Under the pieces are notes generated by a model. The model ran no database searches and had not been told where the DNA came from. It was given only the letters and a program-made list of their open reading frames with translations. A DNA stretch of 64,000 nt from Rhizobiales bacterium 62-17 (lineage in GTDB: Bacteria > Pseudomonadota > Alphaproteobacteria > Rhizobiales > Beijerinckiaceae): contig MKVW01000001.1 in NCBI GenBank assembly GCA_001898965.1, positions 1-64,000 on the forward strand. The letters run 5' to 3'. This document shows, piece by piece, positions 26,769 through 34,052 of the stretch (positions are counted from its first letter, which is position 1; every line of letters starts with the position of its first letter). Both the position numbers and the translations under genes were made by a program.

Positions 26769-27847
26769 TGAACCTTCTTTGGATGCTGGCGCGTCCCGTT
26801 CTGGCCCAGCTCGACTCCGAACAGGCTCACGGCCTGACCATCGCCGCCATGCGCAAACTGCCGCTGCCGGCGGCAGGCCGGGACGATCCACGCCTCAAGG
26901 TTGAGGCCTTTGGTTTGTCCTTTCCCAATCCGCTCGGCATGGCCGCCGGTTTCGACAAGGGCGGCGATGTGCCCGATGCGGTGCTGCGCGCCGGCTTCGG
27001 CTTCACCGAAGTCGGCACGATCACGCCGCGTCCGCAGCCGGGCAATCAGCGTCCGCGCCTGTTTCGCCTCGTCGAGGATGAAGGCGTTATCAATCGCTTT
27101 GGCTTTAATAGCGAAGGGCATGAGGTCGTGCATCGCCGCCTGACGGCGCGCGGCGCGCGTGCGGGTGTCGTCGGCATCAATGTCGGCGCCAACAAGGATG
27201 CCAGCGATCGTGTCGAAGATTATGTGACCGGCATCAACGCCTTTGCCGATGTGGCGGGCTATTTCACCGTCAATATTTCCTCGCCGAACACGCCGGGCTT
27301 GCGCGATCTGCAGCAGGCCTCCGTGCTCGACGATCTGCTGGCGCGCGTTATCGAGGCGCGCGATCGCAAGGCGCAACGTTTCGGCCGCAAGCCCGTGCTC
27401 TTGAAGATTGCGCCCGATCTCACCGAAGGTGATCTCGACGATATCGTGCGCGTTGCCCGCGCCCGTGCCGTCGACGGCATGATCGTCGGCAATACGACGG
27501 TGACACGCCCCGCAACGCTGACGAGCGCGTTCAAGGGCGAGCAGGGCGGCCTGTCCGGTCGGCCCTTGTTTGCTTTGTCGACGCGCGTGCTGGCGCAAGT
27601 GTTTCAGCGTGCCGACGGGGCTTTTCCGATCGTTGGTGCCGGCGGCATCACCGATGCCGCGACGGCCTTCGCCAAGCTCGAAGCGGGCGCCACTTTGCTG
27701 CAGCTCTATTCGTCGCTGGTCTATGGCGGCATGCCGCTGGTGGATGCCATCAAGCGTGGCATCGTCGATCGGCTGGCTGCGGACAAACTGCCCAACATCG
27801 CCCCGGTGGTCGGCCGCAAAGCGGCCGAGTGGAGCAAGGCGCCTTAA
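26768..27847 (+). CDS. pyrD: Dihydroorotate dehydrogenase (quinone), class 2
   Basis: 359 residues from the ATG at 26768. This membrane-associated flavoprotein oxidises dihydroorotate to orotate and passes electrons to ubiquinone (fourth step of UMP synthesis). The N-terminal helix that docks to the membrane and quinone (LLWMLARPVLAQLDSEQAHG) marks class 2. Other motifs: NPLGMAAGFDKGGDVPDAVL, VGTITPRPQPGN, NRFGFNSEGH, VNISSPNTPGLR (catalytic Ser region) and GAGGITDAATAF. Its stop codon shares bases with the stop of the convergent methyltransferase gene. Confidence 0.96.
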   Translation: MNLLWMLARPVLAQLDSEQAHGLTIAAMRKLPLPAAGRDDPRLKVEAFGLSFPNPLGMAAGFDKGGDVPDAVLRAGFGFTEVGTITPRPQPGNQRPRLFRLVEDEGVINRFGFNSEGHEVVHRRLTARGARAGVVGINVGANKDASDRVEDYVTGINAFADVAGYFTVNISSPNTPGLRDLQQASVLDDLLARVIEARDRKAQRFGRKPVLLKIAPDLTEGDLDDIVRVARARAVDGMIVGNTTVTRPATLTSAFKGEQGGLSGRPLFALSTRVLAQVFQRADGAFPIVGAGGITDAATAFAKLEAGATLLQLYSSLVYGGMPLVDAIKRGIVDRLAADKLPNIAPVVGRKAAEWSKAP

Positions 27848-28683
27848 GCCGGCAGCGCGAACAGGTCGATATGCCCGATCTCGCAGGCTGACGCCTCTCG
27901 GCGCGCCGTGAGCCAGGCTTCGACCTGTTCCGGCGCCACCTGTCCGGTTTCGCGCACCGCCGCCGCGCTGCCTTTGGCCAGCTCCGCAATCAAGGAGCGA
28001 TTGGGGGCCTCAAGCAGCCACGGGCTGTCGCCGGTCGACACGCGATAGCCGTGCCGTTCAAGCGCACGTCGCAGGATCGCGGCCGCCTGCGGGCCAGCGG
28101 CGGGGCCAAAACCCTTGTCGCGCCCCTGATGCGCGTGGAAGGCCGCCAGCATGGCGGCATCGGCCTCATGGGGCGGCGTCCATGTCTCGGTGCCGTCATA
28201 GGTGAGCACCGCATAGAGCGGCAGTTTGCGGGCCGCCAGTTCGCGGCAGAAACCGTCGACCCACTCTTCCGAGACGAGATCGAAAAAAGCCGCAGCGGTG
28301 ACGAGATCGAGCGGCTCCTCGAAAACCGCAGCCGGCTCATCCGCGAGATCGGCCTGAACGAAATCGAGCGTCAGTTTCTTGTCTTTGATGCGGACGCTGA
28401 TGCGGTCATCGTCGCCGGCGAATTCGTCGGCCCAGGCGGTGATCGCCAGATTGGCATGATCGAGCAAGGCCTCGTCATGATCCATCAGGCGCCAATGTTG
28501 GGACTTTGGCAGCAGCGGCGCCAGGCCGCGCAGGTTCGAGCCGGAGCCGCTGCCGAGATCGGCGATGCGGACATGCGCGCGCTGGCCAACCCAGGCCAGC
28601 AGTTCGGCACGAAGCTCTTCGTTGATCGAGCGATGATCGATGGGTTCACGCAGCGCCAGCCATTCAGCGGAAAATCCATTCAT
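27844..28683 (-). CDS. Class I SAM-dependent methyltransferase
   Basis: 279 residues from the ATG at 28683, which overlaps the stop of the glycosyltransferase gene as ATGA. Rossmann methyltransferase motifs: motif I IADLGSGSGSNLRGLAPLL, the acidic loop MDHDEALL, and DFVQADLADEP near motif II/III. The acceptor is not identifiable from sequence. It is the last gene of the dehydrogenase, QueD-like, GT4, methyltransferase set, which suggests tailoring of a glycosylated small molecule. It is convergent with pyrD, the two stop codons overlapping in TTAA. Confidence 0.85.
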   Translation of the reverse strand: MNGFSAEWLALREPIDHRSINEELRAELLAWVGQRAHVRIADLGSGSGSNLRGLAPLLPKSQHWRLMDHDEALLDHANLAITAWADEFAGDDDRISVRIKDKKLTLDFVQADLADEPAAVFEEPLDLVTAAAFFDLVSEEWVDGFCRELAARKLPLYAVLTYDGTETWTPPHEADAAMLAAFHAHQGRDKGFGPAAGPQAAAILRRALERHGYRVSTGDSPWLLEAPNRSLIAELAKGSAAAVRETGQVAPEQVEAWLTARREASACEIGHIDLFALPA

Positions 28684-29738
28684 CTTCTTTCGGCAACCCT
28701 CCTCAGCACGCCTGCAATGATCCCAGTCGTTTCTTCCCAACGCCGCAGCTTCTGCCCGGCTTGCCACGATGCCTCGGCGATTTCGTTGCGGCGCTGCCGG
28801 TCCACGATAGCGGTCCGCAGCGCATCGGCCAATGCGGTGGCTTTTCCCGGCGGCACTTTCAGCCCGGCGCCGTCGGGCACGGTGTCGGCCACGGCGCCGC
28901 CCGTCGTCGTGACGATCGGCAGCCCATGCGCCATGGCCTCCGCCAGCGCCATGCCATAGCCTTCATAATGTGACGCCATGACGAAAATGTCCGCCCCGCC
29001 ATAGGCGGCTTCAAGCGCGTCATCGGCCAGTTCGCCGGCAAAGCTGACCCGTTCGTCGAGCCCGGCCTTGGCGATCTGCTGAACCAGGGCCTGAGCGGTC
29101 TCGGGCGCGCGCTTCGGCGAACCGACGATGGTCAGGCGCCAGTCGTGGTCTTTCAGGCCAGCCAGGGCATCGATGAGAACGTCGTAGCCCTTGCGTGGGA
29201 TGATCGAGCCGATGGTCAGCAGGTGTGGCGCGCCCTCCGACCCCTGCGCCCGTGGCGCGGCGTCGATACCAGGTTCCGCAACAGTGATCCGCTCGCTTGC
29301 AACGGCGAAGTCCCGCCGCAAAGTAGCGGCCGTTGCGGCGCTGGTGACGATCACATGATTGGCCGCGGCCAAGGTCTGTTTTTCGTTGGCGATGAAACGA
29401 GCGCTTTGTTCGGCGCTGAGCCCTGCTTCGAGCCCGAGCGGATGGTGACAAAGCGCCACGACTCCGGGCCCGAGGCTCGTCGCCAGATCGGGCGGCAGTG
29501 CCCCCCAGGCCAAGCCATCGACAAGCAGGATCGCGTCGGGACCAGCGCGCGCCAGCAGGCTCTGGGTCTGGGCGAGATCGGCGGCCGATGGGAAGGGGAA
29601 AGAAGCGGGCAGGACGCACAGCGTCGCATCGATGCCCTGCGACGGCAAAAGCGCCAGCACGCGGCGATCGTAAATCGTACCGCCGGTGAGGCTATTGATG
29701 TCGCCGGGAACGGCGAAGACGACGGAAAGCGGTTTCAC
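28680..29738 (-). CDS. Glycosyltransferase family 4
   Basis: 352 residues from the GTG at 29738, five bases after the QueD-like stop. GT-B retaining enzyme: N-domain FAVPGDINSLTGGTIYDRRV, nucleotide-domain start LTIGSIIPRKGYDVLIDAL, and the sugar-nucleotide EX7E motif in HYEGYGMALAEAMAHGLPIV. No membrane segment. GT4 enzymes build lipopolysaccharide, glycolipids or glycosides of small molecules; the adjacent pterin-synthase homologue and methyltransferase favour the last, as inference. Confidence 0.9.
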   Translation of the reverse strand: MKPLSVVFAVPGDINSLTGGTIYDRRVLALLPSQGIDATLCVLPASFPFPSAADLAQTQSLLARAGPDAILLVDGLAWGALPPDLATSLGPGVVALCHHPLGLEAGLSAEQSARFIANEKQTLAAANHVIVTSAATAATLRRDFAVASERITVAEPGIDAAPRAQGSEGAPHLLTIGSIIPRKGYDVLIDALAGLKDHDWRLTIVGSPKRAPETAQALVQQIAKAGLDERVSFAGELADDALEAAYGGADIFVMASHYEGYGMALAEAMAHGLPIVTTTGGAVADTVPDGAGLKVPPGKATALADALRTAIVDRQRRNEIAEASWQAGQKLRRWEETTGIIAGVLRRVAERR

Positions 29739-29743
29739 GTCTG

Positions 29744-30142
29744 TCAGACCGGCCCTTCGAACCAGGCACGCGCCACATGCGATTCATGCAGGGTGACGCG
29801 AATGCGCGTGATGCCCTCGCCGCCCGGCCCCAGCGCGCCCTTGCGCGCGGCCTCCGCCATGGCATCGAAAATATGCTTCGACAGAAACTCCGTCGTCGTC
29901 TGCTGGCCGGCGAACTGCGGCAGCGCGTCGAGATTGTTGTAATTCAAGGGTGCGAGCGTCGCCTTCAGCGCGTCATGAGCGCGACCGATATCGACCACCA
30001 CGCCATCCGCCGTCAGGCTTTCGCGGAAGAAGGCGACATCGACCACGAACGTCGCGCCGTGCAGCTTCTGCGCCGGCCCGAACAGCTCGCCTTTGAACGA
30101 ATGCGCGATCATGATGTGGTCGCGCACTTCGATGGCATACAT
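29744..30142 (-). CDS. QueD/6-pyruvoyltetrahydropterin synthase homologue with degenerate active site
   Basis: 132 residues from the ATG at 30142, with GGGAGA upstream. The T-fold is clear: His14 in MIAHSFKG, KLHGATFVVDV at 27-37, DGVVVDIGRA, TTTEF with Glu85, and Glu120 in VTLHESHVARAWF. Key residues are changed. The catalytic Cys, expected four residues before the HGH motif, is Ala24; HGH is HGA (third zinc ligand Ala30); the catalytic His of the LDH-NL motif is Tyr68. Canonical PTPS/QueD chemistry on dihydroneopterin triphosphate is therefore doubtful. It lies between an MDR dehydrogenase and a glycosyltransferase gene. Confidence 0.88.
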   Translation of the reverse strand: MYAIEVRDHIMIAHSFKGELFGPAQKLHGATFVVDVAFFRESLTADGVVVDIGRAHDALKATLAPLNYNNLDALPQFAGQQTTTEFLSKHIFDAMAEAARKGALGPGGEGITRIRVTLHESHVARAWFEGPV

Positions 30143-30193
30143 ATGTGTCTCTCCCAAAGCGTTTCGCGCGCAAGGACGCGTCGAACAAGAATC

Positions 30194-31180
30194 TCAGTAG
30201 CGGACGACGGCGGCGATGCCGTCGGATGAGTTGAGGAAGCCCGGCAATAAGCGCGGCAGATCCGCGAAAGCGAATTCATGGGTGATGAGTTGATCCAGGC
30301 GCGCGTCGCCCAAGAGTTCAAGGGCTTTCGCCATCCGGCGGCCATATGTCCAGCGCGGACGACGCGAGGGCGAGACCTGACCGACCTGCGACGAGGCGAT
30401 CTGCAAGCGCTTGCTATGGAAACCGCCGCCTAGCGGCGCGGCGATCGTGCCTGTGCCATACCAGCTCAGTTCGACGACGCGGGTTTCAAGGCCCGCAAGT
30501 TCGATTGCCGTTTCGAGCCCCGCGGTGGTGGCGCTGGTGTGAAACACCACATCGCAATCGGCGCAAGATGTCGTGTCGGGGCAGGAAAACTGTGCGCCCA
30601 AAACTTGCGCGAGGGGCGCACGGCCTTCATCCACGTCGATCAGATGGACTTCTGCACCGGGCAGGCGCGCGCACAGAAAGCTCACTAGCAGTCCGACGAG
30701 ACCGCCGCCGACCACGGCGATGCGGTCGCCAGGGCCAGCGCCCGAATCCCACAGCGCATTGAGCGCGGTCTCCATATTGGCGGCAAGCACGGCGCGTCGG
30801 GGCTCAAGACCATCGGGCAGAGGTGTCAGCAACGAGAGCGGTGCGACGAAGCGTGTTTGATGTGGATGCAGGGCGAAGACGTTGCGCCCGAGCCACTCGG
30901 CTGGCCCAGCCTCAATGGTGCCGACGGCGCAATATCCATATTTGACCGGGAAGGGGAATGCACCCTCCTGCAGCGGCGCACGCATGCGCTCATATTCGGA
31001 GGCGGGCACGCGACCCTGGCTGATCAGGCGCTCGGTGCCACGGCTGATCGCGCTCCACAGGGTTTTCACCAGGGCTTCATCCGGGCCGGGCGACGTCACG
31101 GCGGCGTCACGCAATTGCGCCAGGCCGGGCGAAACGTGCCAAAGCGCTTGTGCGTTCCCACTTTTACTATCGACCGCCAT
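30194..31180 (-). CDS. MDR-superfamily dehydrogenase without zinc ligands
   Basis: 328 residues. It has the medium-chain dehydrogenase fold: an N-terminal GroES-like part with SAISRGTERLISQGRVPAS and KYGYCAVGTI, then a Rossmann part with VVGGGLVGLLVSFLCARL and LIDVDEGR. The catalytic-zinc Cys-His pair and the structural-zinc Cys cluster of alcohol dehydrogenases are absent; the SRGTE signature marks the BchC/bi-domain oxidoreductase-like branch. First gene of the four-gene minus-strand set, divergent from opgH across 62 bases. Substrate unknown. Confidence 0.85.
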   Translation of the reverse strand: MAVDSKSGNAQALWHVSPGLAQLRDAAVTSPGPDEALVKTLWSAISRGTERLISQGRVPASEYERMRAPLQEGAFPFPVKYGYCAVGTIEAGPAEWLGRNVFALHPHQTRFVAPLSLLTPLPDGLEPRRAVLAANMETALNALWDSGAGPGDRIAVVGGGLVGLLVSFLCARLPGAEVHLIDVDEGRAPLAQVLGAQFSCPDTTSCADCDVVFHTSATTAGLETAIELAGLETRVVELSWYGTGTIAAPLGGGFHSKRLQIASSQVGQVSPSRRPRWTYGRRMAKALELLGDARLDQLITHEFAFADLPRLLPGFLNSSDGIAAVVRY

Positions 31181-31242
31181 TGCCGCTCCTAATAAGCTTC
31201 CCCATCTTACGCGACCTTGCGATCAATCAAGAGCCTGTTTTC

Positions 31243-33060
31243 ATGCCTGCCGCAATGCCCGAAATGACTCCGGCAGGTCTGCAGCCCCGCGCGCGGCTGA
31301 CGCGGCGGCGGATCATCGCCACTCTGCTCAATCTCCTGACCTATGGGGCGATGCTGTGGTGGCTGTCGGACATTTTGGGTGCCGGCGGCTGGAGCGTGAT
31401 CGACGTTTTGATCTTCCTCTGTTTCGCCATCGCCGCGCCCTGGAGCGTGCTGGGTGTGTGGAACGCGCTGCTCGGCGTGTGGCTGTTGCATGGCCGGCGC
31501 GATCCGATGGCGGTGGTCGCACCCTTTGCCGCGGCGGGCGATAGATTTGTGCCGGTCGTCAGTCGCACCGCCATTCTCATGACCATCCGCAACGAAGATC
31601 CGTCGCGCGCCTTCCTGCGGCTGCGCGCCGTTCGCGAGAGCGTCGAGGCCACGGGCTTCGGTCGTCAGTTCGCTTATTTCGTGTTGAGCGACAGCGACGA
31701 TCCGCAGGTGGGCTGGGCCGAAGAACAAGCTTTTGCCGTCTGGCAGGCCGAAGTCGGCACCGGTGCCGACGATCTGCACTATCGTCGCCGCGACGATAAT
31801 GCCGGCTTCAAGGCTGGCAACGTTCGGGACTTCTGCGAGCGTTGGGGCAGCGGGTTTGAATTCATGCTGCCGCTCGATGCGGATTCCTTGATGTCGGGCG
31901 AGATGATCGTGCGTCTCGTGCGCATCGGCGAGGCTTGGCCGAAGCTCGGCATTCTGCAAAGCCTCGTCGTCGGCGCGCCTGCCTCATCGGCCTTCGCGCG
32001 CATCTTCCAGTTTGGCATGCGCCACGGCATGCGGCCCTATACGATGGGCAGTGCCTGGTGGAGCGGCGATTGCGGGCCGTTCTGGGGGCACAATGCCCTG
32101 GTGCGTATCGCGCCGTTCCGCGACCACTGTCATTTGCCCGTTCTGCCCGGCGGACCGCCGCTCGGCGGGCAGATCCTGTCGCATGATCAGGTCGAAGCCG
32201 TTCTGATGCGCCGTGCCGGCTTTGAGGTGCGCGTTTTGCCGCAGGAGGGCGAAAGCTGGGAAGACAATCCACCGACCGTTTTCGAGTTCACCCGGCGCGA
32301 TCTGCGCTGGTGCCAGGGCAATATGCAGTATTTCCGTTTGCTCAGCCTCGAAGGCCTGCAGCCGATGAGCCGCTTTCAGCTGATCTGGGCGATCATGATG
32401 TTCGTCGGCATCCCGGCCTGGACGGCGATCATCGCGTTGGCGGCGTTAAAACCGCTCGATGGCGAAAATCTCGCAACCTTCCCGGGTCTGTCGGCGTTGG
32501 CCTTCTATTGTGTGTTCCTGCTCATGTTTCTCGCCCCGAAATTGGCCGGTTTCGCCGATATCGCGCTGACCAGAGGCGGCCTTGCCCGCTATGGCGGCAT
32601 CCGGCGCTTTGCTTTTGGTGCGGTGATTGAGATCGTGTTTTCCTTTCTGCTCGGTGCGGCCACCACATTCCGCACCAGCCTGTTCATGCTGGGCCTCGCC
32701 TTCGGCCGGACCATCCTCTGGAACGGCCAGGCGCGCGATGCCCATGCCTTGTCCTGGACGACGGCGGCGCGCGGGCTGTGGGGCCAGACGCTGTTCGGCA
32801 TTCTGCTTTTGATCGTCGCCTGGCATCTGGCACCGGCTCTGATCGGCCCGTCGCTGCCATTGACGCTTGGCTATTTTGTCGCCATTCCCTTCGCCGTTCT
32901 GACGAGCGCCCCCGCCTTCGGCCGATGGCTTGAGCAAAGGGGCCTCTGCGCCATTCCGGAAGAGATTGCCCCGCCGACGATTCTCCTGCGTATACGATCC
33001 AACGTTCTGGCCAGTCCCCCGGCGCCGCCTGCGGCGCTCGCTCCCAACGAGGTTCCATGA
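31243..33060 (+). CDS. opgH: Glucans biosynthesis glucosyltransferase OpgH/MdoH
   Basis: 605 residues from the ATG at 31243. This inner-membrane GT2 enzyme polymerises UDP-glucose into the beta-1,2-glucan backbone of osmoregulated periplasmic glucans. Seen: AILMTIRNEDPSRAFLRLRA, the LSDSDDP motif, DADSLMSG (DxD), LSHDQVEAVLMRRAGFEVRV, WEDNPPT and RRDLRWCQGNMQYF, plus about seven membrane helices flanking the catalytic loop. The usual partner opgG is not in the window. Its TGA overlaps the next gene's ATG. Confidence 0.95.
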   Translation: MPAAMPEMTPAGLQPRARLTRRRIIATLLNLLTYGAMLWWLSDILGAGGWSVIDVLIFLCFAIAAPWSVLGVWNALLGVWLLHGRRDPMAVVAPFAAAGDRFVPVVSRTAILMTIRNEDPSRAFLRLRAVRESVEATGFGRQFAYFVLSDSDDPQVGWAEEQAFAVWQAEVGTGADDLHYRRRDDNAGFKAGNVRDFCERWGSGFEFMLPLDADSLMSGEMIVRLVRIGEAWPKLGILQSLVVGAPASSAFARIFQFGMRHGMRPYTMGSAWWSGDCGPFWGHNALVRIAPFRDHCHLPVLPGGPPLGGQILSHDQVEAVLMRRAGFEVRVLPQEGESWEDNPPTVFEFTRRDLRWCQGNMQYFRLLSLEGLQPMSRFQLIWAIMMFVGIPAWTAIIALAALKPLDGENLATFPGLSALAFYCVFLLMFLAPKLAGFADIALTRGGLARYGGIRRFAFGAVIEIVFSFLLGAATTFRTSLFMLGLAFGRTILWNGQARDAHALSWTTAARGLWGQTLFGILLLIVAWHLAPALIGPSLPLTLGYFVAIPFAVLTSAPAFGRWLEQRGLCAIPEEIAPPTILLRIRSNVLASPPAPPAALAPNEVP

Positions 33061-34052
33061 AGACGCTTCGCCTGTTCTACGCCGCTCTCGCCAGTTCTGT
33101 CCTTGCCGTTTCGGCTCTGGCGCAAACGCCGGTCACGAAACCGCAAGACAAGTCTGAGCCGAAGCCGCAGGAACTGACGGTCGACATCCGCAACCTGAGC
33201 GAGCCGGTGCTATGCGCCGAAAAGGACAATATCCGCGTCGATTTCGCTTCGCCCGATGTGCGCTCGTTCCGCATTCAGGCGCAGCATCCTGCTTACATCG
33301 GTACGATCGTCACCGATCGTTGGGCGCCGGACTTCACCAGTTGCGACATGTCGGCCGATAGCGCCTTCACCAGCGGCGCCGAGAAGCCCAAACGCATCAC
33401 CATTTGGGAGACGCCGGAATACTGGCTGACTGGCTATATCTTTCCGACGTTCTGGCGCCCCAACAGCGTGCCGCTGACCGTGGAAGGACGCAGCGAAAAG
33501 TTTCATCTGATCCAACTCTGGAAGCTGCATCGCGAACGCGCCGAGGAAGTGCTGGTCGTCTATCCGCCCGATGGCTATTGGCGCGCGCGGCCCTTGCCGT
33601 TCGGCGATATGCGCTGGACGGCCTATGGCTCGTCCTTCCTCGTCGGTCCTGTCGAAGTGCAGGAGCGCCCCATCGTCGCGTTGAAGGATATGGCCTTCGA
33701 TCCGGCGACGATGACCTTCAATCTGAACTTCGTGCGCGGCGGTTCAGCGAAATTGCATGTGGCGACCGTCGATCAGGATCATCTGGCGATCGATGTCAGC
33801 CTCGACCGGACCATGCCCGACGGGCTGCCGTTCGCTTCGCTGCGCTCGATGTATATCACCGAGACGAATTCCGACGTGGCGCGCGTGCAGTGGCGCTCGG
33901 CCGGTTCGCATGCCTGGGGCGAAGGCACGATCATGGATTTCAAGGGCGCCAAGGCGCAGGAATTCTGGGCTGGCCGCACCGTGCCGTCGCGTCATAACCT
34001 GTCGGCGCCGGATATGGTATTCCAGCGCTTTCTCGGCACGGCCGGCAAGTGA
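33057..34052 (+). CDS. Secreted protein of unknown function coupled to opgH
   Basis: 331 residues, ATG overlapping the opgH stop (ATGA). Signal peptide LFYAALASSVLAVSALAQT, cleaved near residue 22; the mature part is beta-rich with many Trp and Tyr (ITIWETPEYWLTGYIFPTFW, VVYPPDGYWRARPLPFGDMR, AWGEGTIMDFKGAKAQEFWA). No known domain is recognised. Coupling to opgH and the acyltransferase gene downstream suggests a periplasmic role in glucan assembly or modification; it occupies the place OpgG would hold but does not resemble it. Confidence 0.82.
   Translation: MKTLRLFYAALASSVLAVSALAQTPVTKPQDKSEPKPQELTVDIRNLSEPVLCAEKDNIRVDFASPDVRSFRIQAQHPAYIGTIVTDRWAPDFTSCDMSADSAFTSGAEKPKRITIWETPEYWLTGYIFPTFWRPNSVPLTVEGRSEKFHLIQLWKLHRERAEEVLVVYPPDGYWRARPLPFGDMRWTAYGSSFLVGPVEVQERPIVALKDMAFDPATMTFNLNFVRGGSAKLHVATVDQDHLAIDVSLDRTMPDGLPFASLRSMYITETNSDVARVQWRSAGSHAWGEGTIMDFKGAKAQEFWAGRTVPSRHNLSAPDMVFQRFLGTAGK

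Follow-up and report, generated by a model that had tools for sequence, protein, structure and literature searches.

Four adjacent minus-strand genes in Rhizobiales bacterium 62-17 form a conserved unit that encodes a dehydrogenase of the medium-chain dehydrogenase/reductase (MDR) superfamily, a T-fold protein resembling 6-pyruvoyltetrahydropterin synthase (PTPS) and QueD, a glycosyltransferase of family 4 (GT4) and an S-adenosylmethionine (SAM)-dependent methyltransferase. We lean towards reading these genes as the late part of a dedicated GTP-based biosynthetic pathway, the early part of which would be encoded on another contig in this genome. They lie in a stretch of 64,000 nucleotides of contig MKVW01000001.1 (positions 1 to 64,000, hereafter the window; Table 1), and their product may be a glycosylated, methylated pterin-like compound. 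What the sequences show directly is the gene content, the co-inheritance of the genes, the presence of extra copies of the two entry enzymes and the altered active site of the T-fold protein.

The initial annotation had described the four genes in this order, with gaps of 51 and 5 bases followed by a 4-base ATGA overlap, and the open frames confirm both arrangement and spacing. It had also called for a check on whether the four genes co-occur; their co-inheritance is borne out, and the four turn out to be part of a larger set that includes RibA and RibD. A scan of named bacterial genomes returned at least 584 stretches encoding a T-fold relative; among the best 80 of these, which include the window's own genus and are not independent of one another, 57 carry all four genes in the same order and on the same strand, 52 of them with a divergent opgH. 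In 13 of the 23 incomplete loci the T-fold gene lies within 2.6 kb of a stretch end, and the remaining 10 lack the MDR gene (eight loci) or the methyltransferase gene (two). The arrangement is not due to chance but is a conserved unit. Within the window's genus the T-fold gene is found in 35 of 37 genomes, and the copy in genome G016 is a fragment at a contig end. Neighbouring genes were counted over 63 hand-picked loci, a choice that thinned the window's genus to L045 alone and kept the orphan T-fold loci L130 and L146, using the 58 whose flanks extend 5 kb or more in each direction. Within 8 kb of the T-fold gene these have MDR (56), GT4 (54), methyltransferase (54), RibD (41), RibA (24) and cytochrome b (22) genes, as well as OpgH (30) or CDP-alcohol phosphotransferase (16). 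The last two tend to alternate (both in 2 loci, CDP-alcohol phosphotransferase only in 14, OpgH only in 28, neither in 14; p = 3e-4), a pattern that is only suggestive and largely clade structure, the OpgH label tracking clades on a tree of the MDR and PTPS proteins, with 9 changes against 21 when shuffled and at least 5 forced by the starred branches. Annotated plasmid relatives surround the same four genes with varying selections of RibA, RibD-family, cytochrome b, CDP-alcohol phosphotransferase, flippase-like and creatininase genes.

Among the matches listed, many Hyphomicrobiales share one layout: a divergent opgH, the MDR-PTPS-GT4-methyltransferase genes, convergent genes for cytochrome b and RibD, and then RibA. 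In the genome studied here, genes for a RibD-type reductase, cytochrome b561 and RibA, a GTP cyclohydrolase II (GCHII), lie together at about 1,382,000-1,387,000 of contig G000:C9, the RibD-type gene overlapping the cytochrome b561 gene by four bases. RibA and RibD are present here in addition to other copies: another GCHII match occurs at C9:630438 in a 406-aa frame, and there are six RibD_C matches, of which one lies in a 380-aa frame (C3:254543), the size of a bifunctional RibD, and four are weaker than that copy and the cluster copy; the further GCHII and the RibD-sized gene presumably serve riboflavin synthesis. Cluster-less genomes have one GCHII match each (G046, G048) or two (G037, G041). 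The extra RibA matches PF00925 (169.5 bits, cut-off 23.3) and NF006456 (485.3 bits, cut-off 464), and has the zinc Cys motif as well as a Tyr that corresponds to Tyr105 of the E. coli enzyme and is a mark of ordinary GCHII chemistry. This Tyr is present in 55 of 55 RibA frames matched by regular expression, overlapping loci being counted repeatedly, and the RibA of Streptomyces locus L129 has Met instead. The initial annotation had pointed to a GTP cyclohydrolase, FolE or RibA, as a possible associate; a RibA-type enzyme is indeed linked in the 24 loci counted above, and the linked enzyme is not FolE, which was itself not searched for. For the RibD-type reductase, RibD_C is the sole Pfam match at E 0.001, with no deaminase domain, and its best solved match is 6P8C, a 2,5-diamino-6-ribosylamino-pyrimidinone phosphate reductase (2.2e-23).

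The T-fold protein is a member of the PTPS superfamily (PF01242, 74.4 bits against a gathering cut-off of 22.4) and falls below the curated cut-off of the QueD model TIGR03367 (33.5 bits against 89.25). Catalysis by PTPS and QueD depends on a catalytic Cys, three zinc-binding His residues and an Asp-His dyad. Across 131 distinct T-fold relatives, the positions of the catalytic Cys and the third zinc His are occupied by Ala in every one (Ala24 and Ala30), and the dyad His is Tyr (Tyr68) in 124, while the first two zinc His residues (His14 and His28) and a late Glu at position 120 are retained in all 131. In the PTPS superfamily this Glu holds the pyrimidine edge; one of three other PF01242 proteins taken for comparison (L156, L157 and L127) has Glu there. 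All three keep the HGH and Asp-His motifs, with the Cys in L156 alone, and two of them lie near QueC or QueF matches and also, in frames read by eye, near queE. Judged by its residues, the window protein is no functional QueD. At E 0.001 it matches a single solved structure, 3D7J from Streptomyces coelicolor, which the PDB names 'Uncharacterized protein SCO6650' and which phmmer aligns with residues 1-129 at 1.5e-45. The two proteins belong to one T-fold family, with a shared GPAQ..HGAT motif and common neighbours in a Streptomyces relative, and the relative in Streptomyces fungicidicus is 60% identical to the window protein. Those who described 3D7J are said to have noted lost zinc and catalytic residues together with a pterin-like pocket. 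None of the other three proteins is as conserved as the T-fold protein, which shows 77-95% identity in same-genus loci, against 44-67% for the GT4 and methyltransferase proteins, or 81-86% for these two in the close relative L003.

The gene spread reinforces the link to RibD. The T-fold gene occurs in 45 of 385 sampled alphaproteobacterial genomes, 38 having both T-fold and RibD genes, 7 T-fold only, 1 RibD only and 339 neither (Fisher p = 3e-44, related genomes not being independent); the 110-bit cut for RibD was set after the scores had been seen, the next match scoring 108.5, as was the split between strong and weak RibA. The pair lies within 6 kb in 34 of the 38 genomes, the window's own genome being among the other four, and the sole RibD-only genome is 74% complete. 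In G075 (L174), counted as T-fold only, tblastn does find a RibD match next to the cluster, so the seven should be six at most. At order level, the T-fold gene is carried by five of 24 genomes (G059, with a 28% match at 2e-4, is not counted); three of the five have cluster-type RibD and four have strong RibA, whereas the 19 genomes without the T-fold gene had no cluster-type RibD at E 1e-20. Three of these 19, G037, G041 and G059, do have RibA matches, which are weaker (1e-37 to 1e-44) than the strong ones (1e-66 or better). A phylum-wide sample of 398 genomes queried with the Thiodictyon protein contained 27 carriers at 1e-15, of which 11 lie outside Alphaproteobacteria. Carriers include the gammaproteobacterium Thiodictyon, Streptomyces and Microbacterium, and T-fold relatives are also found on Streptomyces, Microbacterium and Arthrobacter plasmids. 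Methylosinus trichosporium OB3b, too, has the gene set, with RibD next to it. Transfer of the cluster between phyla is suggested, because the cluster-bearing Streptomyces and Microbacterium loci nest in a 20-locus group that is otherwise proteobacterial in a quick, midpoint-rooted tree with SH-aLRT support only. Genomes of 1.4 and 1.6 Mb hold creatininase, MDR, PTPS, GT4, methyltransferase, RibD and RibA genes in one run.

The other three proteins were assigned from profiles and predicted structures. No Pfam family matched the dehydrogenase at E 0.001, and its AlphaFold model, built like that of the methyltransferase from an alignment of the window protein plus relatives, has an MDR fold (mean predicted local distance difference test score, pLDDT, 92.7); the model of the methyltransferase shows the fold of that enzyme class (mean pLDDT 96.6). 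Foldseek places the two models among MDR dehydrogenases and class I methyltransferases, respectively, in the best 50 matches of each. The best-matching curated model at E 0.001 for the window dehydrogenase, as for 32 of 32 aligned members, is bchC, with a score for the window member (44.8 bits) that is far below the cut-off of 291.25. Relatives are usually annotated 'zinc-binding alcohol dehydrogenase', yet the 32 aligned dehydrogenases lack the conserved Cys zinc ligands that a zinc-dependent MDR enzyme would have: no Cys is among their invariant or 90% columns, and the most frequent Cys column holds Cys in 22. The GT4 protein matches PF00534 (117.2 bits, cut-off 26.4), and second among its solved matches is MshA; GT4 enzymes such as MshA act on polyol phosphates. 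The window methyltransferase scores 24.1 bits with Methyltransf_25, below the Pfam cut-off of 27, and is one of 31 of 34 aligned methyltransferases that match this family at E 0.001.

From these parts we infer the reactions and a possible order. The extra GCHII would convert GTP to 2,5-diamino-6-ribosylamino-pyrimidinone phosphate, because it retains the ordinary-type Tyr, and the deaminase-less reductase would then turn the ribose into a ribityl chain. Since the latter consists of the reductase domain alone and its best solved match is of the diamino type, the 2-amino group of a pterin may be kept, in which case the ribitylaminopyrimidine would be one condensation short of a pteridine. The T-fold protein is proposed to bind the pyrimidine ring because Glu120 is retained and, together with the BchC-like dehydrogenase, may shape the intermediate, perhaps closing and oxidising the pteridine ring. 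GT4 would add a sugar, ribityl phosphate resembling the polyol phosphate acceptors of such enzymes, and the methyltransferase would add a methyl group. The membrane partners, cytochrome b561 and either OpgH or CDP-alcohol phosphotransferase, suggest a role for the product in the membrane region or outside it. A more specific proposal, which we regard as improbable, is that the product belongs to a new class of redox cofactors linked to the membrane, or of components of the envelope, with an 8-ribityl-pterin-like core that is glycosylated and methylated. It would be charged through cytochrome b561 and attached to a phospholipid in lineages with CDP-alcohol phosphotransferase or to a periplasmic glucan in lineages with OpgH.

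Several observations weigh against this pathway. In the window's own genome the four-gene locus and the RibA/RibD pair are unlinked, on different contigs; RibA is nearby in just 24 of the 58 loci; seven of 45 T-fold genomes have no RibD match at the cut, subject to the correction for G075; and no RibD was found in the stretches examined of L145, L167, L173 and L186. Within 8 kb, no methyltransferase was seen in L056 and L182 and no GT4 in L144 and L187, the GT4 gene of L133 being about 4 kb away, so that this glycosylation may not be universal. The proposed route names no source for the extra carbons of a pteridine ring. The reductase itself scores slightly higher with the bacterial RibD model TIGR00326 (104.5 bits, cut-off 156.35) than with the archaeal diamino reductase model TIGR01508 (94.5 bits, cut-off 186.45), both below cut-off, and most of its other solved matches are RibD proteins, so it may act on a deaminated substrate supplied by the housekeeping RibD. 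Finally, SCO6655 is reportedly a Met-type enzyme with formyl-intermediate chemistry, and a creatininase lies beside a Tyr-type RibA in L158 and L159, where a simple formyl-intermediate story would not need it. Because of this pairing we also rejected the idea that creatininase is required solely alongside a Met-type GCHII such as that of L129.

Other explanations must be set against a dedicated GTP-based pathway. The T-fold gene might simply be the genome's QueD for queuosine, set among unrelated neighbours. The genome has full-length QueC (C3:522168) and QueF (C3:348963) matches and the window T-fold protein is its sole PF01242 protein, which leaves the QueD step of queuosine synthesis unaccounted for, and plasmid relatives are publicly annotated as 6-carboxytetrahydropterin synthase. 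We nevertheless find this hardly credible given the replaced Cys, zinc His and dyad His, the low score with the QueD model, the conserved neighbouring genes and the occurrence of the T-fold gene in G040, G053 and G060, genomes with partial QueC matches only and no QueF over cut-off. The initial annotation had likewise held that this is no ordinary queuosine locus, which stands: queC and queF lie outside the window, elsewhere in the genome, and no queuosine gene adjoins the T-fold gene, queE not having been searched for. It had also drawn an analogy with the pterin glycosides of cyanobacteria, and a FolE-derived pathway with a working PTPS would fit the adjacency of a PTPS-type protein and a glycosyltransferase. 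Cyanobacterial biopterin glycosides derive from the FolE route. Here GCHII with a RibD reductase takes the place of that route, FolE itself not having been searched for, and the T-fold protein has lost the residues of a working PTPS active site, so that we judge such a pathway very unlikely. Pteridine glycosyltransferases have been described for Chlorobium and cyanobacteria (PMC5683033), and what the present genes share with those systems is the idea of a glycosylated pteridine (PMC5683033; PMC13259868). The analogy is thus limited to glycosylation, because the linked entry enzyme is of RibA type and is accompanied by a reductase-only RibD.

It is also possible that GCHII feeds a secreted natural product of the toxoflavin or azapteridine sort instead of a pterin glycoside. 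Toxoflavin synthesis likewise draws on a GCHII, a methyltransferase and a homologue of RibD; the spread over many families, the fixed gene set and the retention in genomes of 1.4 and 1.6 Mb would fit a cofactor or envelope role better than that of an antibiotic, and we consider a toxoflavin-like product unlikely, ToxC and ToxD not having been searched for. In another scenario the divergent opgH produces a periplasmic glucan and the four genes serve to decorate it, with the T-fold protein recruited to the task. OpgH does accompany most four-gene loci, as counted above, yet 28 of 58 loci lack a near OpgH, 14 of these having CDP-alcohol phosphotransferase instead, and RibD is found more consistently (41 of 58), which makes glucan decoration highly unlikely in our view.

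A GTP-derived pteridine or pyrimidine pathway of the kind we favour would differ in its entry and gene set from those of queuosine, folate, biopterin glycosides and riboflavin. The early archaeal and fungal riboflavin route resembles it in its RibD_C-only reductase, the difference being that the cluster reductase falls below the archaeal equivalog cut-off. The locus of S. fungicidicus combines the T-fold gene with MDR, GT4, methyltransferase, RibA, creatininase and CDP-alcohol phosphotransferase genes, and the Streptomyces cluster showed no RibD within 8 kb; the window, in contrast, has OpgH as a neighbour, with RibA, RibD and cytochrome b561 elsewhere in the genome. PruA-PruR-DcpA signalling in Agrobacterium offers a likeness in that a pterin acts outside the cytoplasm, the pterins there being of the monapterin type and made with PruA, and the present genes are not named in the available text of the 2026 review of bacterial pterins (PMC13259868). 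That text describes as unknown how pterins cross the membrane, and the terms 'cyclohydrolase II', 'PTPS' and 'biosynthetic gene' do not occur in it. Already on record are the single protein SCO6650 and the GCHII SCO6655, the latter tabulated as GTP cyclohydrolase II (PMC2853524). No account of the gene set or its product was found in titles and abstracts, most subscription papers lying outside the coverage, and we are apparently dealing with an undescribed pathway widely shared among bacteria. If so, a sizeable share of Alphaproteobacteria and the other carriers make a GTP-derived compound, for which no name was found, through a pathway hidden in public annotation by queuosine and riboflavin labels. 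As the reactions of the two entry enzymes are predictable, the product should be traceable by isotope labelling.

Table 1. Genes of the four-gene locus, its divergent neighbour and the partner locus; the opgH start was set at an ATG inside the listed frame
Feature	Position	Strand	Remarks
MDR-superfamily dehydrogenase, distantly BchC-like	30194..31180	-	328 aa open frame
T-fold PTPS/QueD-like protein, SCO6650 family	29744..30142	-	132 aa counted from own ATG
GT4-type glycosyltransferase	28680..29738	-	352 aa open frame
Class I SAM-dependent methyltransferase	27844..28683	-	279 aa; ATGA overlap with GT4 gene
opgH/mdoH-type membrane glucosyltransferase	31243..33060	+	divergent neighbour of the four genes; kept in many relatives
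RibD-type reductase	C9:1382586-1383305		240 aa
Extra RibA (GCHII)	C9:1383566-1384606		divergent to the RibD-type gene

The OpgH of the window scores 900.8 bits with NF003963 (cut-off 884). A 331-aa protein encoded at 33057-34052 on the plus strand, which is found near opgH in many relatives and is separated from it by an FkbM methyltransferase gene in several, has no Pfam or NCBIfam match at E 0.001. A search for inverted repeats in 27700-31300 returned two short palindromes and nothing else notable. In L145, where opgH lies upstream on the same strand, RibA and RibD were both not found in the stretch, and loci with an interrupted or partial four-gene set (L044, L052, L083, L098 and L103) had no further pathway gene evident by eye. 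The orphan SCO6650-type T-fold genes of the Streptomyces plasmids L130 and L146 have no cluster partner within 8 kb and lie near cupin and MEKHLA-domain genes. No GT4 gene stands between the PTPS and methyltransferase genes in L133, L144 and L187, and a PfkB/ribokinase-family gene is found near the clusters of L133 and L144, as if a kinase had replaced sugar transfer. Clustering also showed that five of 54 loci (L101, L131, L132, L147 and L148) encode a sulfatase/LtaS-like membrane protein close to the cluster, that of L132 having a Sulfatase match slightly under the Pfam cut-off. Directly after the extra RibA gene on G000:C9 comes a gene for a YfhO-like membrane protein (L149:11176-13497, plus strand; PF09586, 32.6 bits, cut-off 28.5), and frames that cluster with it occur in 16 of 54 loci.

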